A stretch of 64,000 nucleotides of DNA, from assembly GCA_028554795.2 (NCBI GenBank), contig CM068842.1:53333608-53397607 (forward strand), in the 5' to 3' direction. Shown piece after piece: positions 43,344 to 64,000 of the stretch (within the stretch, counting starts at the first letter, position 1; each line of letters starts with the position of its first letter). The DNA comes from Sinohyriopsis cumingii. Taxonomy: Eukaryota > Mollusca > Bivalvia > Unionida > Unionidae. The notes beneath the pieces were generated by a model. The model saw only the letters and a program-made list of their open reading frames with translations, was not told the DNA's origin and searched no databases. The position numbers and the translations under genes were made by a program.

Positions 43344-43904
43344 TGTAAATTACCAACAAACACTCTTTCTTGCAAATGAACAAGTACCACTGTCTAATGA
43401 CCCTATATGAAGTTTCATGACGAAACGATCTCAAACGATCTCATAAATTACCGGAGAATCCAGAAAGGATGTATCGATGCAGATACAGTTCTGAGCCACC
43501 GGGGAAGGTTGTGTGGCACAAATTCATTTTGGTACTTTTGACGATGAGACAAATGTTGCCTCTTATTTTCATCAAGTGATTTACATACAACCGGCACGAA
43601 AGCCTACAAATGTACGGCCGAAATTAAAACTTCCTAGTCCTGAGTTCCCGCTGACAAAACGGCCACGTTTATTACTGACTTATTAAACGCGCAGTTGTTT
43701 GAGATGAAAAGAAAGTTTTTGACCAAAGATCAAGGGCGCTTTCCATCAACCACGACAGTTTTCATGTCCTGCAGAAAAAGGATTGTAGTAAACCTTCTGA
43801 ACAAACACCTTCCAAAATTATCGAAAAAATCCTGCACGTACAACAAAACAAAGGCAAGTTCGACATACCAGTTGAAAATTGAATGTGTATATGCCTCACT
43901 TTAG

Positions 43905-45134: not shown

Positions 45135-45545
45135 ATTTCTTCACCAGTTTGGGTTCTTCCTCTTCTTTTGTTTCTGCTAGTGGTATTGATTTCTTGCATG
45201 TATTGACGGGAACGGATTCTTATTTTCTGTCGTAAGACCATTTCTCCTGCTTCTCTTCTTCGTTCTTCTTTTTTTCTCTTTTTTTCTTAGGACACACTGA
45301 AGACCAATGTCCTTTCTCCTGACAAGCATCACGGATATCTTTACCCTTGTCTCTCCTTTATCTTGTAGTTTCTTTGTTTATTGTTGTATACATTCCAGAG
45401 CCTAATTTCCATTCTCCTAATAGACGGAGCAGATATCTTGACTTATGTCTCGTGAGGAATAGCAGTATTTCGTCTTGTGTGAAGTATACTTTGGAGTGCC
45501 TCTGAAAATCTCTGACCAGTTTGAAAACTGAATGAATACACTTAG
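45135..45545 (-). pseudogene. Relic of the Polinton zinc-knuckle gene (older element)
   Basis: The minus strand aligns with the gene at 47,773-48,247: same 3' border ('ttttttaatttcttcacc' against 'ttttttgaatttcttcacc'), a Lys/Glu-rich stretch, and two degenerate CCHC knuckles in the same order. The knuckle near 45,293-45,345 keeps C-x4-GHW-x3-C but has lost its first Cys to Arg. The one near 45,391-45,440 has lost the second Cys and the His and carries two stops. The N-terminal part resembles the 'FVRALRGVIRKF' region of the intact protein. No function remains. Confidence 0.7.
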
Positions 45546-45556
45546 GGTGAGACACT

Positions 45557-46014: not shown

Positions 46015-46084
46015 TGCCTCTCTTTCTGTCTGTTTTAGTCGTTACTGCTTTTTGATTGTCTGAACTGGTCTCGTCAGTAGTGAA

Positions 46085-46345
46085 AGGGGTCACTTTACGG
46101 ACAATGGGAATTAGCATTACAGGGACCCCTGGGTCACTTTACGGACAATGGAAATTTAACATGGCGAAAAATCGTGGGTCACTTTACGGACAAGGGGAAT
46201 TTAACATGGGAATAAATCGTGGGTCACTTTACGGACAAGGGGAATTTAACATGGGAATAAATCGTGGGTCACTCTACGGACAAGGGGAATTTAACATGGG
46301 GAATAGAGTTTGGGCTTGTTTAGGGACAAGGGGAATTTAACATGG
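46085..46345. repeat. 45-bp tandem repeats at the left edge of the Polinton
   Basis: Unit 'gggtcactttacggacaagg' + 'ggaatttaacatgggaataaatcgt', with copies starting near 46,130, 46,174, 46,219 and 46,264 and partial copies at 46,087 and 46,318. 45 is a multiple of three, so one frame stays open for 94 codons, but its product is only the repeat. It may be part of the terminal repeat of the element. Confidence 0.8.
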
Positions 46346-46424
46346 GATTTTTTTTTTTTTAAATTTAAAAATTTAAAAAAGGGGTAGGCAATTCAAAGGC
46401 TATCTCTTTTCGAGAAATATGGCT

Positions 46425-46440
46425 GGCCCTGAAAAGGGCC
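46425..46440 (-). terminator. Histone-type 3' stem-loop for the 46,463-46,693 gene
   Basis: In the minus-strand transcript the sequence is aaa-GGCCCU-UUUC-AGGGCC-agcca: a 6-bp stem with a UUUC loop, starting 22 bases after the stop codon. It is followed about 10 bases later by a purine stretch (cgaaaagagat) in the place of the U7-binding downstream element. This matches the metazoan replication-dependent histone mRNA 3' end signal. The three bases before the stem and the distance from the stop also fit. Confidence 0.75.
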
Positions 46441-46462
46441 TTTGGTTTATGTTAATATGCCC

Positions 46463-46693
46463 TTAACATAAAGGGCATTTGCGACATCTTCTTGTCCTCA
46501 AACTTCGTCTTACAGCAGGGCCATACATCAGAGTCCTCTTGAGGCAACCTTGTCTCTCTATATAGACTCTTCTTATCCACAGGCTGCTGTTGGTCCTGTA
46601 GACAACGGTCCACTTGGATCGGACATACATGAGCATGTCCGTCCTGAACATCATTGTTGACACAAGGGTTGAAGATTCAACGTCGGTCCACAT
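46463..46693 (-). CDS. Small basic Arg/Cys-rich protein, unknown function (76 aa)
   Basis: The leftmost gene of the element, transcribed toward the terminus. The protein ends in a strongly basic segment with four cysteines in the last 30 residues or so (a GPAVRRSLRTRRCRKCPLC tail), suggesting nucleic-acid binding. I do not recognise the family. Support for a real gene: a TATA box (TATAAATAA) 44 bases upstream of the ATG, and a histone-type stem-loop 22 bases after the stop. It is divergent from the 188-residue gene, with 219 bases between the two start codons. Confidence 0.6.
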   Translation of the reverse strand: MWTDVESSTLVSTMMFRTDMLMYVRSKWTVVYRTNSSLWIRRVYIERQGCLKRTLMYGPAVRRSLRTRRCRKCPLC

Positions 46694-46912
46694 GTTGAGG
46701 CTCCGAGAATAGGTGAATCAATGCAGTGAACTGCACTTATTTATAGGGACAGAAAGGATTGAAACGGATTGAGTTCATTCACCAATCCGAACACGCGTTA
46801 AAGAATTCAGTCAGCCCGCATCCAATCCGAAGAGAGCAGTCTGTGACGTCACGTAGTCAATATAGATTCGCTAGCGCTTGTGTGCAGTCAATCTATGCGA
46901 TAGTGATTCAAC
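46694..46912. promoter_or_regulatory. Bidirectional promoter with TATA, two CCAAT boxes and a CRE
   Basis: Minus-strand TATAAATAA at 46,737-46,745. Plus-strand CCAAT boxes at 46,782-46,786 and 46,822-46,826, each within 'ccaatccga'. A full CRE (TGACGTCA) at 46,844-46,851. A weaker plus TATA-like box (tatagatt) at 46,861-46,868, 52 bases before the rightward ATG. CCAAT plus TATA in a ~220-bp divergent spacer resembles animal histone H2A-H2B intergenic promoters. Confidence 0.6.
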
Positions 46913-47479
46913 ATGACGGAAACTCAGAAAACGATCCAGTGGGGTGCACCAGCAGGGGAGACCGCCCAAGGGAACCCGGACTTACTTTCAGAAGAGGTGA
47001 ATTGGGATTTTGTGGATTTTCTCTCCTCGCAAGAATTTGTTCCGGAACCTTCGTTACCTTCTTCATTACCGCAAGTGGAGAATTTTAGACAGAGACAGAA
47101 AGAAGAATTGGAGAAATTTATACAACGACAAAAGGAAGCGGAACAGGCTTTTCTCCTACAGCAACAGCAACAAGAAGAAGAGGTAAGAAAAAAACAACAG
47201 CAAGAAGAAGTAGCAGCAAAGAAACAAGAGGGTGAAAATCAAACGGTCACGGTACTGTTGGACATTTTAGCGGAGTTAAGAAGTCTGAAACAAATGTATC
47301 AGACTTCTTTATCACGACCGAAGAGAATACGACCTTCCCGAGCCAAACACGTCAACCCTGTGACTAAGCCTACCGTACCACCCTTAGTGATTTCAACCCA
47401 ATCATTATCATCATTACGCAGTCCAGAAGTAGGCCTTGGCCGTGGCAAAGGCTTAAGGCAGTTAAAATTGATTGCTTAA
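46913..47479 (+). CDS. Coiled-coil Gln/Glu-rich protein, unknown function (188 aa)
   Basis: The N-terminus is acidic (residues 1-50, with a 'NWDFVDFLSS' segment). Residues about 58-110 are a charged Gln-rich coiled coil (repeated RQKE and QQQQ). Residues about 115-135 form a second amphipathic stretch, followed by a basic tail with a likely nuclear localisation signal (RPKRIRPSRAK). It could be the coiled-coil protein often found in Polintons or an early regulator; I cannot decide. The start ATG is the first in the frame and lies 52 bases after a TATA-like box. The 3' end carries a histone-type stem-loop. Confidence 0.65.
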   Translation: MTETQKTIQWGAPAGETAQGNPDLLSEEVNWDFVDFLSSQEFVPEPSLPSSLPQVENFRQRQKEELEKFIQRQKEAEQAFLLQQQQQEEEVRKKQQQEEVAAKKQEGENQTVTVLLDILAELRSLKQMYQTSLSRPKRIRPSRAKHVNPVTKPTVPPLVISTQSLSSLRSPEVGLGRGKGLRQLKLIA

Positions 47480-47507
47480 ACTCACCCCTGCACCATAAAG
47501 AAAAAAA

Positions 47508-47523
47508 GGCCCTTTTCAGGGCC
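47508..47523 (+). terminator. Histone-type 3' stem-loop for the 188-aa gene
   Basis: aaaaa-GGCCCUUUUCAGGGCC-ACCCA: stem, loop and both flanks match the animal replication-dependent histone mRNA consensus, including the ACCCA cleavage context. It starts 28 bases after the stop codon. A purine-rich stretch (cgaaaagaaat, 47,536-47,546) follows at the distance expected for U7 snRNA pairing. Confidence 0.8.
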
Positions 47524-47772
47524 ACCCACATTTCTCGAAAAGAAATACAATTTCAATTTGCCAATAACTCAAAAAAAAAATAACTCACCCATTTTACCCT
47601 TATAGTACGTGTCTGTGTATGAGTGCGTGAGTGTAGCTTCTTATTTTAAAATCAAAACTCAAAGACTCTTACCTTATATCATTCATTTATTCTTTTCTGC
47701 ATTTTTTACAATCCAATTCACAATTCACAACACTTTAATCAAAAGTTCATTGATTTCTTCTTTTCTCCTTGT
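47524..47772. other. Convergent intergenic spacer
   Basis: AT-rich 250-bp gap between the end of the coiled-coil gene and the 3' end of the minus-strand zinc-knuckle gene. It contains minus-sense AATAAA-like sequence (attcatttattc at about 47,680-47,692). No gene seen. Confidence 0.5.
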
Positions 47773-48247
47773 TTAGTCTCTCTGTTTTTTGAATTTCTTC
47801 ACCGTCACACTCTTTTTCTCTTCTTCTTCCTCCTCGCTTTCTTCCCTTCTTCTTTTTTTCTCCTGTTTCTTTTTCTTCACCTGTCTTCTTTCTTCCTCAG
47901 AAGAATCCCTCTCTTCCTCTGAAGAATCCCTCTCTTCTTCTGAAGAATTCCTCTTTTCTTCTGACTCCTCTTGTTTCTTTTTTGGGCAATCTGGAGACCA
48001 ATGTCCTTTTTCTTGACAATAATAACAGGTATCTTGACTTTTGTCTTTTTTATCCCCTGTTTTTTTTTCTTTTTTGACGGTCTGGACACTCTGAAGACCA
48101 ATGCCCTTTCTTCTGACAGATATAGCAAGTATCTTGACTTTTATCTCTAAAGGAAGGAGAGTAGTCCGTAGGCTGGTCTGAAGAGAATTTTCTAATGACC
48201 CCTCGCAAAGCTCTGACGAAACGTTCCATCTGGTTAGTCTCTTCCAT
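47773..48247 (-). pseudogene. Two-knuckle CCHC zinc-finger protein, interrupted by a frameshift
   Basis: Two retroviral-type knuckles (C-x2-C-x4-H-x4-C), CYICQKKGHWSSEC at about 48,087-48,130 and CYYCQEKGHWSPDC at about 47,985-48,028, lie in different frames. The frame changes by +1 in an A-rich stretch (minus strand; T9 and T6 runs at 48,060-48,075 on the plus strand). Before it is a short 'MERFVRALRGVIRKF' helix; after it, acidic SSEEER repeats and a Lys/Glu-rich tail. CCHC knuckles bind single-stranded nucleic acid. I prefer the ATG at 48,247, which lies 54 bases after a TATA box; an upstream ATG at 48,295 would precede the start of transcription. Confidence 0.65.
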
Positions 48248-48298
48248 CGTTGTGCTCGGCTTGAGAGTGAAATGAATAGTGAAAGGACAAGACACACA

Positions 48299-48381: not shown

Positions 48382-51300
48382 ATGAAACGATCCCATTCAT
48401 TCGAGAAGAAAGAAGAAGAAAGTAAGAGGCAGAAACGTGATCTATTGCCTCGTACCAGGGCTGAAATCTTGGCACAAATTCATGCTAGTGATTTTGAAGA
48501 GGACATGAGTGAACCAGAATCCCAACCCTCTAAACCAAGTTCACCACCCTTAGTCAACCCTGAAAAGTACTATTCCATTCGAGAGACGGAAAAGCGCTCC
48601 TCTAGAAAATTTAGAACTACGGCTTACAAATACACGGTGAAGTTTAAAGATTTCAAGGCTGAAGTGCCGTTAGAGAAAGCAGAAGTGTTCATCACCGAGG
48701 TGTGGGATTCTTTGCTCACTGCACTCAAGCGACAATGTCAACCCAAAGAAGACGATCGCTTGAGACTTTCCATACAACACGACGGTTTGAAATCCCCTGT
48801 TTGGATCGAGTTTAGCACCCCTGCAGAATTGACTGCTTCCAAAGTCATGGACAAGATTCAACACGTACAACAATCTAATGACCAGTTTGACATCACCGAT
48901 GGTAAAGCCACACTGGACATGACCCACGTCTCTCCTCCTCAAGGGACAGGACGCAAAAAGATGTTATTGGTGGACGACCTTCGCAACACCAAAAAGAGTC
49001 TCGTCCGAATTAACAACCCTCATGAGCAGATGTGTTTAGCCCGTGCCATCGTGGTGGGACGAACCTATGCCAACAAGAACGACACGGTAGAATGGAAAAG
49101 AACCTGGGACACTATTCAACGTTCCGACCGAGCCAAACAACGAAACGAAGCAGAACTCCTGTTACAACAAGCCGGACTGCCCAAAGACACACCCTGTGGC
49201 ATTCCTGAGATGCAAAAATTGCAAGATGCCCTAGCTCCACGCTACACCTTGAAAGTGCACCCTCAAGAAGTGCGCGGACCTCTGTTGTTTCGAGGCCAAG
49301 ATTTTAAGGACGGAAAATACATTCACCTTTATCATCACGATGACCATTTCGATACGATTACCAGTATCACTGGATTCCTGAGATATGTTTATTATTGTGA
49401 GAAATGTGACTATGGTTATAATAATCGAGAGCAACACAAACATTGTGGATGGAAATGCTCAGGATGTTTGGCCTCTCCACCCTGTCTGAGCGAAGAACCA
49501 GTGCCTTGTTCCAATTGTCTGCGCACGTTTGTCAGCCCTACCTGTTACCAACAACATTTGAAGACGCAAGGTTCACAGAAGAAATGCGCTTGTCAACTCC
49601 TGAGATTGTGCCCTACGTGTGGACAAGGCATACGTACCAATAATACCAAGGCACACGTATGTTCAGGAAAGAAAAAATGTCACATTTGTCACCACATCGT
49701 GGACTTGGAACACCAATGCTACGTGCAAAAATACCAATCCCCACCAGAGAAAGAGGACGGTCACAAGAAGAAAGGCAATTTCATCTTTTTCGATTTCGAA
49801 TGCATGCAAGAGACCGGCATTCACATTCCTAATTTCTGCGTGGCTCATCGAGCGTGCGAGAAGTGCATTCAAGAACCTATCTTCAGTCATTGCCCTCACT
49901 GTAGCAAGATTCCCGGAGGACGTGAAAAAATCTTTCGGGGACCGAACACGTTAGCCGATTTTGCCCAATGGGTCTTAGACCCCGTCGACAAGACGTGGAG
50001 CCAAGAGGACATCGAACGTTACGGAGATTGTCATCGCCATGCCACAGTGATGGCTCACAATTTTTCCGGATACGATGGACAGTTTCTTCTCAGATACTAT
50101 ACGGAACAAGGCACCGAGCGTCCTAAAGTGACTTTGAACGGAGCCAAAATCATTTTCATGCAAGTGGGACAAGTGCAGTTTAAAGATTCGATGAGCTACT
50201 TGGCCATGCCTTTGAGTCGAATGCCTAAAACGTTTGGAATGACAGAAATAGCTAAAGGGTACTTTCCACACTTTTTCAATACGGAAGCCAATCAACACGC
50301 CGTTCTACCCCATTTACCTGAGGCTCACTATTACGACCCCGACAACATGCGTACCGAACAACGAGAAGCTTTCTACGCTTGGTACCAGATTCACGCCTCG
50401 GACCCTTTCGACTTTCAGGAAGAAATGCTAAAGTATTGTCGTTCCGACGTGGACATTTTACGGCGTTGCTGTGGAAAATTTCGAGAACTGTTCATGGAAC
50501 ACGGAGGGGTCGATCCTTTGAAAGAAGCTTGCACCATTGCCAAAGCGTGTTCCTTAGTGTATCGACAACGATTCATGCCTGAAAACACAGTGGCTGTCAT
50601 CAGTCCTCAAACGACCCACTTTGTCAAACGTCAATACTCGGTCAAAGCCCTACGTTGGTTACATTACTTGTGCGACAAGGAAGACAAATGGATTCAGCAT
50701 GCCCGCAACGGAGGGGGTGAAAAGACCATCGGAACGTATTCGGTCGATGGCTGGGACTTAGAAAACCCCAAGATCGTGTACGAGTTTAACGGTTGCTTAT
50801 TTCACGGATGTCCCGTTTGTTACCCTGACCGTGGCACCAAGAATCAGTTTTTGCAACGAACCATGGAAGACTTGTACCAGGACACTTGTCAGCGTCGCCT
50901 AAAGTTAGAACAGGAAGGATACCAAGTGGTGGAAATGTGGGAACACGAGTACGATCACCGTATGAAAACCGATCCCGAGTTTAAACGCCTCGTGGAAAGT
51001 TACCAGTTCATGGACCCGCTGAACCCGAGGGATAGTTTGTACGGAGGAAGGACCAATGCCACCTGTTTGCTGTACCAAGCCGACGAAGAGAAAGGAGAAG
51101 AAATCAAATACTTGGACGTGTGTTCGCTGTATCCCTACGTGTGCAAATATTGTCGCTTTCCTGTAGGGCACCCGCAATTGTTAACCGAACACATCGACCT
51201 GAAAAACATTCGACAATACGAAGGCTTGATCAAGTGCAAAGTTTTGCCTCCCACGAACCTATACCATCCCGTCTTACCTCACCATTGTCAAGGCAAATTG

Positions 51301-52443
51301 ATGTTTCCCTTGTGCCGTACTTGTGCCGAAACGTGCAACCAAGATCAACCTTGTCAGCACAGCCAGGAAGAACGGGCCTTGACGGGAACCTGGGTCAGCG
51401 TAGAATTGTTCAAAGCTCTGGACATGGGATACCAACTGTTAGAAGTGTACGAAATTTGCCACTTTCCCAAGACACAACAGTACCGCAAGGGTGATCCCAG
51501 TCAGAAAGGCATTTTCGCAGACTACGTGGATGCCTTTTTGAAACTGAAGCAAGAAGCCAGCGTCTATCCTTCCTGGTGTCACACTCCCGAAGACCAAATA
51601 CAATTCAAAGAGAAATACTACGAACAAGAAGGCATCACTTTAGACCACATCGAGAAAAACGAAGGCAGGCGATCGTTTGCCAAAGTGATGTTAAATTGCT
51701 TGTGGGGTAAAATGGCACAACGACCGTGTTTACCCAAGACGGAATATTTGACAGAACCTTCCCGCTACTTCCAGATGATTCACGACAAAACCAAATACAT
51801 GAAACACGTGGACGTCGTTCGAGAGAATTTGATCTTGGTCAATTACGAAGAAGATCTGGACTTTGTGCAAGACGACCCTTTTGGAAATGTCATCATTGCG
51901 GCTTACGTGACAGCCCATGCTCGCTTAAAATTGTACGAAGCTTTAGAACTGTTAGAAGAACGCGTCCTGTACTTTGACACGGACAGTTGCATTTACATCC
52001 ATCACCCGATTCAACATCACCCTAACATCGAAGGAGACCGTTTAGGAGCCTGGACAGACGAGCATCCCGACGACAAGATTCTAAGTTTCGTCAGTGGCGG
52101 TCCCAAAAATTACGGCTACGAATACCGGGACAAACAAGGAGAAGTGCACACGACGTGCAAAGTGAAAGGACTGACTCTGAATTATCGTACCAGTCGAGTG
52201 GTCAACTTTGGGGTATTGAAAGAAGCCTTGCAATCGGGAGAGGATGGAAACTTTAAAGTGACCACCTATCAACCGAACAAGATTGTACGTTTACCCACTC
52301 ACCACATCGTCAGTCGACCCTTGGAAAAAGTCTATCAAATTGTATACCAGAAGCGAGTTCGACTTCCCAATCATTTCACCTTACCGTACGGTCACGTCGG
52401 TATTGGTCTGTATATAAAAAGGAACCCTAGGCAAGATCGATAG
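48382..52443 (+). CDS. polB: Protein-primed-type family B DNA polymerase (1,353 aa)
   Basis: Replicative polymerase of the element. Order of parts: charged N-terminus; a Cys/His-rich region of several zinc-binding pairs (about residues 337-455); the 3'-5' exonuclease with Exo I FDFE (D471, E473), Exo II HNFSGYD (D565) and Exo III YCRSD (Y685, D689); an insert with 'YEFNGCLFHGCPVC' (from residue ~800), which resembles a Vsr/PD-(D/E)xK-like nuclease fold seen in related mobile polymerases; polymerase motif A DVCSLYP (D912), motif B K-x3-NCLWG (K1101, N1105) and motif C YFDTDS (D1199, D1201); then KGLTL. All catalytic residues are present and there is no lesion. Length is normal for Polintons. 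The ATG is set by the TATA box 54 bases upstream and by conservation in the older relic. Confidence 0.95.
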   Translation: MKRSHSFEKKEEESKRQKRDLLPRTRAEILAQIHASDFEEDMSEPESQPSKPSSPPLVNPEKYYSIRETEKRSSRKFRTTAYKYTVKFKDFKAEVPLEKAEVFITEVWDSLLTALKRQCQPKEDDRLRLSIQHDGLKSPVWIEFSTPAELTASKVMDKIQHVQQSNDQFDITDGKATLDMTHVSPPQGTGRKKMLLVDDLRNTKKSLVRINNPHEQMCLARAIVVGRTYANKNDTVEWKRTWDTIQRSDRAKQRNEAELLLQQAGLPKDTPCGIPEMQKLQDALAPRYTLKVHPQEVRGPLLFRGQDFKDGKYIHLYHHDDHFDTITSITGFLRYVYYCEKCDYGYNNREQHKHCGWKCSGCLASPPCLSEEPVPCSNCLRTFVSPTCYQQHLKTQGSQKKCACQLLRLCPTCGQGIRTNNTKAHVCSGKKKCHICHHIVDLEHQCYVQKYQSPPEKEDGHKKKGNFIFFDFECMQETGIHIPNFCVAHRACEKCIQEPIFSHCPHCSKIPGGREKIFRGPNTLADFAQWVLDPVDKTWSQEDIERYGDCHRHATVMAHNFSGYDGQFLLRYYTEQGTERPKVTLNGAKIIFMQVGQVQFKDSMSYLAMPLSRMPKTFGMTEIAKGYFPHFFNTEANQHAVLPHLPEAHYYDPDNMRTEQREAFYAWYQIHASDPFDFQEEMLKYCRSDVDILRRCCGKFRELFMEHGGVDPLKEACTIAKACSLVYRQRFMPENTVAVISPQTTHFVKRQYSVKALRWLHYLCDKEDKWIQHARNGGGEKTIGTYSVDGWDLENPKIVYEFNGCLFHGCPVCYPDRGTKNQFLQRTMEDLYQDTCQRRLKLEQEGYQVVEMWEHEYDHRMKTDPEFKRLVESYQFMDPLNPRDSLYGGRTNATCLLYQADEEKGEEIKYLDVCSLYPYVCKYCRFPVGHPQLLTEHIDLKNIRQYEGLIKCKVLPPTNLYHPVLPHHCQGKLMFPLCRTCAETCNQDQPCQHSQEERALTGTWVSVELFKALDMGYQLLEVYEICHFPKTQQYRKGDPSQKGIFADYVDAFLKLKQEASVYPSWCHTPEDQIQFKEKYYEQEGITLDHIEKNEGRRSFAKVMLNCLWGKMAQRPCLPKTEYLTEPSRYFQMIHDKTKYMKHVDVVRENLILVNYEEDLDFVQDDPFGNVIIAAYVTAHARLKLYEALELLEERVLYFDTDSCIYIHHPIQHHPNIEGDRLGAWTDEHPDDKILSFVSGGPKNYGYEYRDKQGEVHTTCKVKGLTLNYRTSRVVNFGVLKEALQSGEDGNFKVTTYQPNKIVRLPTHHIVSRPLEKVYQIVYQKRVRLPNHFTLPYGHVGIGLYIKRNPRQDR
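52411..52420 (+). promoter_or_regulatory. TATA box for the 65-aa gene
   Basis: TATATAAAAA inside the last codons of polB, 65 bases before the ATG at 52,476. Confidence 0.6.
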
Positions 52444-53214: not shown

Positions 53215-53244
53215 AGTAACTTTTTTTACCATAATAATCTGTTC

Positions 53245-53700
53245 ATGGATACTTTACAAGAGAACATTCGTGCTTTGCCTGTGGAGTTGAGAGAACGCAT
53301 TTATCGAGAACTGGTCAAAATACAAGTGAAACGTAAAGAACAATTGCATCCGTTACGTCACCGGTTTTTGAACCACTGGTACCCGAAGGCTATACAAGGA
53401 CTGATTCAATTGAAAGTGTTCCATTGGACAGACATTGATCAACGATCCTCTAGTTTTAAAAAGGATTGGTTTGGTATGGACGATTGTAGTTACATCATTG
53501 TAAACGTACTGCATCGAATTCCAGAGGAAGAGTTAACGAATTACCAACATCTTGAACACAATGTCAACTTGGTGAAAGAGGAAACTTCTGAACGAATTGT
53601 AATGTGTAGATTAGTGACTCAACGATTTAAATTCGACACTGAAGTGAAACCATGTTTGTGCAAAGAGTACATTTCTTGTGTCAGACCAAAGAGGATTTAG
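53245..53700 (+). CDS. F-box-like protein, tandem copy 1 (151 aa)
   Basis: Residues 11-23 (LPVELRERIYREL) match the start of an F-box, the ~40-residue motif that binds Skp1 in ubiquitin ligases; the remainder of an F-box is not clear. The C-terminal 110 residues are unknown, with conserved NHWY, YQH and aromatic residues shared with copy 3. First of three tandem copies whose first 31 residues are nearly identical. If it is a real F-box protein, the C-terminal part would choose the target. It could instead be an unrelated helix-rich family. Confidence 0.5.
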   Translation: MDTLQENIRALPVELRERIYRELVKIQVKRKEQLHPLRHRFLNHWYPKAIQGLIQLKVFHWTDIDQRSSSFKKDWFGMDDCSYIIVNVLHRIPEEELTNYQHLEHNVNLVKEETSERIVMCRLVTQRFKFDTEVKPCLCKEYISCVRPKRI

Positions 53701-53712
53701 TATGACCTATTC

Positions 53713-54039
53713 ATGGATACTTTACAAGAGAACATTCGTGCTTTGCCTGTGGAGTTGAGAGAACGCATTTACCGAGAGTTGGTCAAAATACAAGTGAAAC
53801 GTAAACTCAAAGTAATTCATCCGTTTTTAAATTATGCTCTGTTCCAAAGTACAAGAAGACTGATTATGAGTGGATATTACATTAGGCACAAAGTTAAACG
53901 AGGCTATTGGCTACCACCCAACGATTCCAAAAACAGTGTATATACTTATGGATACTTTACAAGAGTACATTTTGGGCTTGCCTGTGGAGTTGAGAGAACG
54001 CATTTACCGAGAGCTGGTGAAAATACAAGTGAAACGTAA
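53713..54039 (+). CDS. F-box-like protein, tandem copy 2, truncated (108 aa)
   Basis: The first 31 residues are identical to copy 1, and the sequence just upstream of the ATG is also copied. After the shared part it resembles copy 1 only loosely (a HPFLNYALF-type segment) and then reads out of frame across the start of copy 3, which it overlaps by about 90 bases. Probably a partly deleted duplicate; expression as a short protein is possible. Confidence 0.4.
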   Translation: MDTLQENIRALPVELRERIYRELVKIQVKRKLKVIHPFLNYALFQSTRRLIMSGYYIRHKVKRGYWLPPNDSKNSVYTYGYFTRVHFGLACGVERTHLPRAGENTSET

Positions 54040-54466
54040 AGAACAATTGCATCCGATACGTCACCAGATCTTTAACCACTGGTACCTGAATGGTATAAGA
54101 GAACTGATTCGTCAGAAATTCTTTCAATGGTCAGACCTTGTTCAAAACTTTGAGGTCGCTAATGATCGACATGTTCATGATTATGGTTACTTCGAGATTC
54201 ACCTACAGCAATACATTGAGGAAGACAAGTTAAAGGATTACCAACATATTTTACGTGGAATCTACTTAGAGGAAGAGGAAACACCTAAACGAACTCTGAC
54301 GTTTCGGTTACAGTATGCAAGATTTAGATTCCCTACTGGAGAACGAAGATCTCTGGCTAGAAAGTACGTCTATTGCATCCGAAAAAAAGAGAATATAAAA
54401 ACAGGCTGCCATGCCACGGTTTATGTCACATGTCATCCAACAGATTCCGTGGAAGGAACTCAATGA
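53948..54466 (+). CDS. F-box-like protein, tandem copy 3 (172 aa)
   Basis: Begins at the ATG that corresponds to the other copies; the frame is open further upstream but that part belongs to copy 2 sequence. It has the same F-box-like start (LPVELRERIYREL) and is similar to copy 1 throughout (EQLHP, NHWY, a YQH segment), with a longer tail. The next small frame overlaps its last 56 bases. Divergence between copies 1 and 3 is much greater after residue 31 than before it, which suggests gene conversion or selection on the N-terminus. Confidence 0.5.
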   Translation: MDTLQEYILGLPVELRERIYRELVKIQVKRKEQLHPIRHQIFNHWYLNGIRELIRQKFFQWSDLVQNFEVANDRHVHDYGYFEIHLQQYIEEDKLKDYQHILRGIYLEEEETPKRTLTFRLQYARFRFPTGERRSLARKYVYCIRKKENIKTGCHATVYVTCHPTDSVEGTQ

Positions 54467-57036: not shown

Positions 57037-57423
57037 ATGTCACCCTCCAGAAAACCCCAAGGAAAGAAAAGGAAAGGACTACCACCACGTTTAGCCAAAC
57101 ATGGGGACCTGTTATCTGTCCTGTCCAAAGCTTCTCCACCCCTACGAAAAAAACTCATTCAAACGGCCTCCAAAGAGGTCATCGATACCGTGTGCGAATG
57201 TTGTTTGAACGTTTTGAAAGGCACGATCCCTTTGTCCAAACACCAGAAACAATGCTTAGGCAAACATCGTCACGTTCTTCGGAAAATGGTTCAAAAGAAA
57301 ATTCCCATTCGTCAAAAAAAGAAGATGTTGGTCCAACGTGGAGGCATTTTACCTCTCTTGTTAGGCCCCATACTGAAAGGAGTCTTGGGAACCATGTTGG
57401 GAGGACTGATGGGAGCAAGATAA
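57037..57423 (+). CDS. Adenovirus pX-like small virion protein (128 aa)
   Basis: Basic N-terminus; a helical middle with 'TVCECCLNVLKGTIPLS' and 'KHRHVLRKMVQKK'; then 'LVQRGGILPLL' and a hydrophobic Gly-rich C-terminus (about residues 105-128). This order (repeated KK/LR helices, then Q-x-GG-[IF]-L, then a hydrophobic tail) is common in a small protein of animal Polintons and adintoviruses that has been compared with adenovirus pX. The tail contains M-L-G-G|L, matching the adenain cleavage consensus. The ATG at 57,037 is the first in frame. Confidence 0.6.
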   Translation: MSPSRKPQGKKRKGLPPRLAKHGDLLSVLSKASPPLRKKLIQTASKEVIDTVCECCLNVLKGTIPLSKHQKQCLGKHRHVLRKMVQKKIPIRQKKKMLVQRGGILPLLLGPILKGVLGTMLGGLMGAR

Positions 57424-58132: not shown

Positions 58133-59245
58133 ATGGAAAAAGTCTTAGCTAGCATTTACTACGATCCCTCCCATCCTGCAGGTTACGCAGGAGTTCAAAA
58201 ATTGTATCGTGCTGCCAAAACGCGACTGAAAAGTCTCCGTTTACCTCAAGTGCAACGATGGTTACAAGAACAAGCTACCTACACTTTACACAAACCCATT
58301 CGACGCAAGTTTGCCAGAAGTCGCACCCGAGTGGAAGGCATCGATCATCAATGGCAAGCCGATTTAGCCGATGTCTCTCATTTGGCCAGCTACAATCGTG
58401 GTTACAAATATTTGTTTTGTGTCATCGACGTCTTTTCCAAATTTGCCTGGGTCGTACCCTTGACTTCCAAATCCAGCAGCGAGTTAGTGCGAGCCCTGCA
58501 ACGGGTGTTGAAACAAAGCGGTCGTCGCCCTCTTCGATGGCAAACGGACAAAGGCACCGAATTTCTGAACCAAGCTTTCCAAAAAGAATTAAAGAAACGT
58601 GACATTCATTTTTTTACCACCGAGAATCCCGAAACCAAAGCCAGCATCGTGGAACGTTTTCAACGCACTTTGAAAGAACGCATGTGGAAATATTTTACGC
58701 ATCACCACACTCTGAAGTACATCGACATCTTACCGCACCTGGTGCAAGCGTACAACCAATCTTACCATCGAAGCATCGGACGTGCCCCGCAAGACGTGAC
58801 TCCCGACAACGAAGTGCTGGTGTTCGAGCGCCTGTTCGGTACGTCCCCGACGAGGGCTGTCCCCAAGAAAAGTGGAGAGTTGACCGTAGGAGATTGGGTG
58901 CGCATTGGCAAAACCAAACGCACTTTCGACAAAGGTTACTTACCTAACTGGACGACCGAACTGTTTCGCGTCACTGGACGAGTACATGGCCGTCATCCTG
59001 CCGTCTATAAATTGGAAGACATGAACGGAGAAGTACTCAAAGGAACGTTTTATTTGCCCGAGTTACAACGTGTCACCAAAAAAGAAGACGACGTGTACGA
59101 CATCGAAAGCATTCTCGAACGCAGAACTCGTAAAGTGGGCAAACGACGTGTCAAAGAAGTCAAAGTACGTTGGAAAGGATATCCACCCAGTTTCGATTCT
59201 TGGATCGACGCTTCGCAAGTCATCGACTATAAAAAGAAGAAGTGA
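58133..59245 (+). CDS. int: Retroviral-type DDE integrase with C-terminal chromodomain (370 aa)
   Basis: Catalyses insertion of the element's DNA ends into the host chromosome. The rve core has D77 (in WQADL), D139 (in WQTDKGTEF) and E174 (in KASIVERF), the last two 35 positions apart. An SH3-like C-terminal domain follows (VGDWVRI ... WTTELFRV). Residues about 322-370 are a chromodomain (YDIESIL ... VRWKGYP ... SWI), which in related elements guides integration to methylated histone H3 chromatin. I use the ATG at 58,133 with an A-rich leader; the frame is open further upstream but overlaps the preceding gene. It is intact. Confidence 0.93.
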   Translation: MEKVLASIYYDPSHPAGYAGVQKLYRAAKTRLKSLRLPQVQRWLQEQATYTLHKPIRRKFARSRTRVEGIDHQWQADLADVSHLASYNRGYKYLFCVIDVFSKFAWVVPLTSKSSSELVRALQRVLKQSGRRPLRWQTDKGTEFLNQAFQKELKKRDIHFFTTENPETKASIVERFQRTLKERMWKYFTHHHTLKYIDILPHLVQAYNQSYHRSIGRAPQDVTPDNEVLVFERLFGTSPTRAVPKKSGELTVGDWVRIGKTKRTFDKGYLPNWTTELFRVTGRVHGRHPAVYKLEDMNGEVLKGTFYLPELQRVTKKEDDVYDIESILERRTRKVGKRRVKEVKVRWKGYPPSFDSWIDASQVIDYKKKK

Positions 59246-63659: not shown

Positions 63660-64000
63660 ATGAACGTTGCAGCTCGAAAACCGTGTGGGGGATGTTTTCC
63701 TTCACGTCCGCGCTTTAACTTTAAGAACCGGGGTTGTTCCCAGTCTAGCCATCCATTGTCGACTCATCCTCCTAAGAAGATGTGCTCCAAACTAGCTAAG
63801 CTCAACGAAGCCTACGTGAATCTGCATAGGGTCAGACACAGTCTGATACCGAAGCCAGAAGAAATAGAGAATGTGAGAATGTTAAAAATCACTGAAGACC
63901 TGATAGAAGAACTCTTCCGAGAAGAAATGAACAGGGAAAAAGAAGAATGGACAGAGAAGTACAGACTTCAGAGACAGCAGCAACAGCAGCAACAGCAGCA
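63660..64000 (+). CDS. Partial gene: Cys/basic N-terminus, coiled coil and poly-Gln, runs off the window
   Basis: Open from the ATG at 63,660 to the last base (113 codons, no stop). The N-terminus has four cysteines among Pro, Arg and Lys (CGGCFPSRPRF ... RGCSQS ... MC). From about residue 60 it becomes a charged amphipathic helix (EEIENVRML, EELFREEMNREKEEW) that runs into a poly-Gln tract. The mix of coiled coil and Gln run recalls the 188-residue gene at the left end, without clear homology. Function unknown. Confidence 0.55.
   Translation, partial: MNVAARKPCGGCFPSRPRFNFKNRGCSQSSHPLSTHPPKKMCSKLAKLNEAYVNLHRVRHSLIPKPEEIENVRMLKITEDLIEELFREEMNREKEEWTEKYRLQRQQQQQQQQ

Follow-up and report, generated by a model that had tools for sequence, protein, structure and literature searches.

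Histone-type stem-loop modules at the 3' ends of terminal Polinton genes in Sinohyriopsis cumingii

Introduction

Can protein-coding genes of a virus-like mobile element carry the 3' ends of replication-dependent histone mRNAs? The question is raised by a locus of the bivalve Sinohyriopsis cumingii, where most of one Polinton lies inside the window (the whole 64-kb stretch of DNA that was analysed) and where a preliminary description had read the sequences following the two leftmost, divergent genes of the element as histone-type 3' ends. A literature search, which partly covered titles and the beginnings of abstracts and outside which most subscription papers lay, returned no earlier report of such ends in Polintons, and the main text of two adintovirus/Polinton preprints does not contain the term "stem-loop" (PMC11071296, PMC11071308).

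Results

The element and its genes

The element shares with the Polinton/Maverick group (adintovirus-type endogenous viruses) a type B DNA polymerase of the viral/organellar family (PolB, Pfam PF03175), an rve integrase with chromodomain, a packaging-ATPase-like (A32-like) gene recognized by Pfam, terminal inverted repeats (TIRs) and a 6-bp target duplication; an adenovirus-type protease appears as a weak match only (PF00770, E 0.0084, 16.3 bits, below the cut-off of 21.3). The capsid candidates gave no match in a Pfam search, and their names are our own assignment alone. The element starts at 46076 and, according to 3 kb of further host sequence to the right of the window (L112), ends at about window coordinate 66054. 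Its TIRs are 373 bp long, 98.4% identical and both start with AGTAGTG, and the duplicated target, CTCGTC, is perfect in both copies; near-identical TIRs and a perfect target duplication make the insertion look recent. The features on which the argument draws are the following (window coordinates).

46076..46448, no strand: left TIR, enclosing stem-loop A; right partner at L112:1892-2262
46403..46412, minus strand: downstream element A (CGAAAAGAGA), with GAAAAG 13 nt past the stem; from sequence
46425..46440, minus strand: stem-loop A, at the end of the 76-aa gene and within the left TIR; RF00032, 35.6 bits
46463..46693, minus strand: gene A, 76 aa; homologue P0141 (65%); TATAAATA lies 52 nt upstream of the ATG
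46694..46912, no strand: divergent promoter region of genes A and B, from sequence; 3.06% substituted in 30 copies
46913..47479, plus strand: gene B, 188 aa; 20 listed homologues, fold prediction and genome matches
47508..47523, plus strand: stem-loop B, at the end of gene B; RF00032, 41.2 bits
47524..47528, plus strand: ACCCA, putative cleavage site, from sequence and PMC7026596
47537..47547, plus strand: downstream element B (GAAAAGAAATA), with GAAAAG 13 nt past the stem; from sequence
48382..52443, plus strand: PolB, core gene (PF03175); no stem-loop within 300 nt downstream, the only Histone3 matches in the window being A and B
58133..59245, plus strand: integrase (rve and chromodomain), core gene (PF00665, PF00385)
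63660..64000, plus strand: gene C1, initial part; its end is at window coordinate 64130 (in L112), with a stem-loop following at 64161

Several further observations concern the element and its surroundings. A 45-bp unit is repeated 5.8 times within the TIR (46087-46347), and directly left of the young insertion lie older Polinton remnants (43596-43867 and 45252-45554), comprising a PolB piece and a zinc-knuckle piece. The zinc-knuckle gene at 47773-48297 has two overlapping open frames with a zinc-knuckle match in each, and a small gene starting MDTLQE is present in three related tandem copies (53234-54145). Another small gene (57037-57423), for which Pfam gave no match, has the end GGILPLLLGPILKG..., which we take to resemble the C-terminus of adenovirus pX.

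The modules following genes A and B

The sequence GGCCCTTTTCAGGGCC occurs at 47508-47523 on the plus strand and at 46440-46425 on the minus strand, past the stops of both divergent genes and in the sense of each transcript, and in both places it folds as a 6-bp stem with a 4-nt loop. The preliminary description had given this orientation, a distance from stop to stem of 22 nt for one gene and 28 nt for the other, a 3' flank of AGCCA or ACCCA and a purine stretch further downstream, all of which the analysis reproduces (22 nt and AGCCA for A, 28 nt and ACCCA for B), with GAAAAG starting 13 nt past the stem in both cases. The covariance-model scan that it had proposed likewise came out positive. 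Family RF00032 (Histone3) of Rfam, with a gathering score of 34 bits, matches B at 47503-47547 (plus strand, 41.2 bits, E 9.6e-9) and A at 46445-46400 (minus strand, 35.6 bits, E 1.2e-6); these are the sole gathering-level matches of any Rfam family in the window, and a scan of the window for further Histone3 matches at E up to 1 found none besides A and B. Chance, which the preliminary description had thought unlikely, is ruled out as the source of the hairpins by these E-values (1e-8 and 1e-6) and by the match to the histone genes of the host presented below.

Genes A and B are the exceptions among 18 window genes examined, the other 16 lacking a stem-loop of this kind in the 300 nt downstream; the pattern used for this count required GG...CC, and the Histone3 scan at E up to 1 would also list a C-type stem-loop. 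An argument from missing AATAAA/ATTAAA was dropped, because 16 of the 18 window genes are without such a signal within 300 nt. Histone pre-mRNA is described as cleaved 4-5 nt past the stem-loop, and the core of the mouse histone downstream element (HDE) as AAAGAG (PMC7026596); copy A contains AAAAGAG.

A second 6-bp hairpin is possible over the downstream element (47530-47547, 46424-46403, and in the copies). Its pairing is present in 429 of 486 cells, versus 249-318 when the positions are slid, with some two-sided changes, and, if stable, the hairpin might compete with U7 or hide the downstream element from it.

Host histone genes

In the 2.9-Gb host genome, histone H4 (114 matches) lies in tandemly repeated units, each about 8.3 kb long. 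One such unit (L111) comprises H4, H2B, H2A, H1 and H3, each ended by an RF00032 match of 35.0-39.4 bits. The stem reads GGCCCU/AGGGCC in four of the five genes and GGUCCU/AGGACC in H1, and the stem-loop of H2B is identical to that of the Polinton at 16 of 16 bases. The distance from the stem to GAAAAG amounts to 13 nt in three genes (H4, H2B, H3) and to 14 nt in the other two (H2A, H1), with stop-to-stem distances of 27-38 nt, and H4 and H2B also have AATAAA/ATTAAA-type sites. Among 90 distinct element 3' ends (taken from the window and L011-L110 and selected by agreement at 13 or more of the 16 stem-loop bases), 76 have GAAAAG at exactly 13 nt, for which the chance is about 0.0002 per given offset. 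The sequence CTAGAAAAGA is found in four of the five host histone genes, in 18 of the 90 element ends, and in the C1 and C2 modules of the window copy. About 20 nt further on, the element has a CAATTTGCC-like motif that host H2A shares.

The element modules thus have in common with replication-dependent histone mRNA 3' ends the stem, the loop, the A-rich 5' flank, the ACCCA-like tail, GAAAAG at about the host distance and a short stop-to-stem distance, and the histone-type reading of the preliminary description gains support from host genes that share both the stem-loop type and the spacing of GAAAAG. They differ in that the genes carrying them are not histone genes but belong to a virus-like mobile element, and in the first pair of C1 and C2. 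A further difference is the second hairpin; among the host genes it folds in H2B and H1, reaches three pairs in H2A and does not fold in H4 and H3.

Five terminal genes

The preliminary description had assigned the feature to two genes, both of which are confirmed, but its extent is five: three further modules (C1, C2 and D) follow genes at the right end of the same Polinton, to the right of the window (L112). They score 31.0, 31.0 and 31.8 bits against RF00032 (E 3e-6, 3e-6 and 1.4e-6) and, lying below the gathering score of 34, are similar to the family without being members. Stem-loop A lies inside the left TIR, and the right TIR therefore carries a copy of it, D, which ends a 126-aa gene; the C2 stem-loop ends a 107-aa gene. 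In C1 and C2 the stem-loop is AGCCCTTTTCAGGGCT, with A-U rather than G-C as its first pair. All five modules have the A-rich flank and a UUUC loop on a 6-bp stem, and four have an ACCCA-like tail; the distance to GAAAAG is 12 nt in D, which is without ACCCA, and 13 nt in the other four. The stops of the five genes lie 19-30 nt from the stem (28-30 nt in B, C1 and C2), and C1 and C2 carry AATAAA at 111 and 110 nt. It is the terminal gene sets that bear the module, whereas the core block seen here, with its replication and capsid-type genes, has none.

The five modules are not separate witnesses. Those of A and B form a 54-nt inverted pair that is 87% complementary, which, together with the position of A in the TIR, identifies the two copies as paralogues, so that the independence assumed for them in the preliminary description was mistaken.

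The terminal proteins

Protein A has one listed homologue, P0141 (65%), whose contig shares its size and sources with that of P0128, a homologue of B. For protein B there are at least 20 homologues, among the matches listed, on short contigs, including relatives whose protein B is 60-70% identical. Its AlphaFold model consists of a long helix only (residues 53-133; mean pLDDT 69, pTM 0.26), after which comes a basic, KR-rich stretch that appears NLS-like by eye. The conserved end of the protein (47416-47478) is GLGRGKGLRQLK and by eye resembles the N-terminal tails of histones H4 and H2A. A Pfam search gave no match for proteins A, B and C2, and those of protein D were all below cut-off (the best being TAF4, E 0.0033); charged residues abound in the C1, C2 and D proteins, with a basic end in C1 and D. 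A role as regulators or chromatin-type proteins during DNA copying would fit the terminal proteins, as a guess. By description, these genes recall the accessory genes of adintoviruses, among which candidate oncogenes are mentioned (PMC11071296), in being small and placed beside the core block.

One homologue of B, P0130 (67% identical and known only as a protein), reads through its stop into the same module. When its tail is back-translated and compared with copy B of the window, agreement extends to 12 of the 13 constrained stem-loop bases (4.2 expected), the single disagreeing base sitting in the sixth pair, and to 14 of 16 constrained bases in the next 21 past the stem-loop (5.5 expected); upstream of the stem-loop, 9 of 36 agree (12.8 expected).

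Copies in the host genome

The Polinton family is highly multiplied in the host genome. Gene B has at least 150 copies, 147 of the 150 listed being 100% identical, from 26948 first-look candidates. A search of the genome with RF00032 listed 75 loci, these being the 75 scored of 589472 first-look candidates, and the 70 that were fetched all carry parts of this family: 18 of the first 30 contain the A/B genes and 12 the right end, and the remaining 40 all contain element parts. A stronger statement, that only Polintons match RF00032, was rejected, as the 70 loci are not a census and the host histone genes (35.0-39.4 bits) fall outside them. The best element copies reach 45.6 bits.

Constraint on the module was assessed mainly in 30 copies picked by the identity of protein B, regardless of the stem-loop, which are consequently young and in which low change in gene B says little. 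Exactly two perfect stem-loops are found in 27 of them, three in one and one in two. Relative to the window, 2 of 960 stem-loop bases are substituted (1/480 in each of A and B) and 0 of 630 bases of the downstream elements (A 0/300, B 0/330), next to 201 of 6570 intergenic bases. Counted by site, stem-loops and downstream elements are variable at 2 of 53 positions versus 88 of 424 in control noncoding regions of our own choice (Fisher p 0.0008), and stem-loops alone at 2 of 32 (p 0.03). Change is low elsewhere too, at 0.83 and 0.77% in the spacers, 0.91% in the 5' flank of A and 0.58% in the stretch after B, and 120 of 454 overlapping noncoding 16-nt windows, those of the module included, vary at no more than one site; the module therefore belongs to the quietest stretches but is not alone in that.

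An older set was drawn from the 70 loci picked with RF00032, 46 of which could be aligned and were counted while 24 were dropped. There, codon positions 1, 2 and 3 of gene A are substituted at 11.7, 6.4 and 31.0%, a pattern that marks purifying selection on this gene. The stem-loops differ at 0.67% (A) and 0.92% (B) of bases in these copies, a conservation that is partly ascertainment because the stem-loop model picked the set, and the downstream elements of the same model-picked copies differ at 21/267 (A, 7.9%) and 21/374 (B, 5.6%). Stem pairing in related copies, the loss of which the preliminary description had named as grounds for abandoning its reading, is mostly kept: among 81 distinct sequences selected for at least 13 of 16 bases alike, standard pairing at the six positions holds for 77, 81, 81, 78, 80 and 81, and the outer (first) pair is G-C in 67 and A-U in 9, a two-sided change. 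At loci picked via another stem-loop, all 16 bases are kept in 9 of 13 B ends and the six pairs in 10 of 13, and all four A ends are perfect, in a classification that left out 15 rows from L061-L080.

Relatives outside the host genome

A viral contig collection searched by protein and by alignment yielded no relative. Pattern scans of the viral contigs returned 7 and 1 contigs; the 7 loci gave no gathering-level Histone3 match, and the 221 bases scanned at locus L010 gave none at E 0.1. A genome contig collection contained no relative of gene B, and two distant PolB contigs (34 and 38% identity), from which the element ends are possibly absent, showed no Histone3 match at E up to 1. Nothing here supports generality of the module among Polintons.

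Discussion

The position of the module past five stops, its site constraint and its match to the histone genes of the same host point to one reading above others: probably, the five terminal genes of this Polinton (A and B on the left, C1, C2 and D on the right) use histone-type 3' processing by SLBP and U7 and would thereby be timed to S phase. SLBP corresponds to Pfam family PF15247 and U7 snRNA to Rfam family RF00066; a U7 gene would be short and have the Sm site AATTTGTCT. In the mechanism that we infer, host SLBP would bind the stem, host U7 snRNP would pair with the GAAAAG element, and CPSF73 would cut between stem and GAAAAG, after the ACCCA-like tail, releasing short mRNAs that have no poly(A). 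Their synthesis and persistence would fall mainly in the period of host DNA replication, which would time the terminal genes to S phase, presumably to the advantage of the element.

Processing could also be of the histone type and yet amount to no more than a compact way of terminating transcripts near the element ends independently of poly(A), with no tie of these transcripts to S phase. Genes A and D, which end in or beside the TIRs with little room, fit such a use, whereas B, C1 and C2 use the module although space is not short there, and in animals the stem-loop is described as usually bringing replication coupling (PMC5011920). We regard a purely terminating function as unlikely, though worth keeping in mind.

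More distant is the possibility that the hairpins act as DNA, for example as a component of the terminal repeat during replication, packaging or integration, and resemble histone ends by convergence. A and D do lie within TIRs, where inverted copies automatically face outwards, but B, C1 and C2 lie outside them and are nonetheless found 28-30 nt past stops in the sense of the transcript; a DNA hairpin, moreover, needs neither the loop nor the flanks nor GAAAAG at the host histone distance, all of which match. This makes a role at the DNA level very improbable.

Transcripts of the element might instead be decoys that titrate host SLBP or U7, lowering histone supply and leaving element DNA less packed, with processing of the element's own mRNAs secondary. 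The multiplication of gene B (at least 150 copies among 26948 first-look candidates) could make the target RNA abundant, and the best element copies outscore the host histones. Against this, all five modules stand at the 3' ends of open reading frames, as ordinary 3' ends would, and genes A and B have conserved relatives, so that titration as the main function appears more doubtful still. Least probable of all is that the module goes back to a past copy of a host histone gene end, spread by duplication within the element and is now kept by descent only: the distal CAATTTTGCC of host H2A is like the CAATTTGCC of the element, the modules of A and B are largely complementary over 54 nt and neighbouring noncoding stretches are quiet too in young copies, but the site constraint across the 30 copies and the low divergence of the stem-loop in older copies (0.67%, in a set picked by the stem-loop model, versus 31% at third positions of gene A) speak against it.

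If S-phase-timed processing by SLBP and U7 is the correct reading, these would probably be the first non-histone protein-coding genes with mRNAs ending in an SLBP stem-loop, and the element a mobile DNA virus coupled to the DNA synthesis of its host. SLBP and U7 would then have a set of natural substrates outside the histones, a route by which a Polinton could sense S phase or take advantage of it would become visible, and the expression programme of this Polinton would become testable by simple 3'-end mapping.
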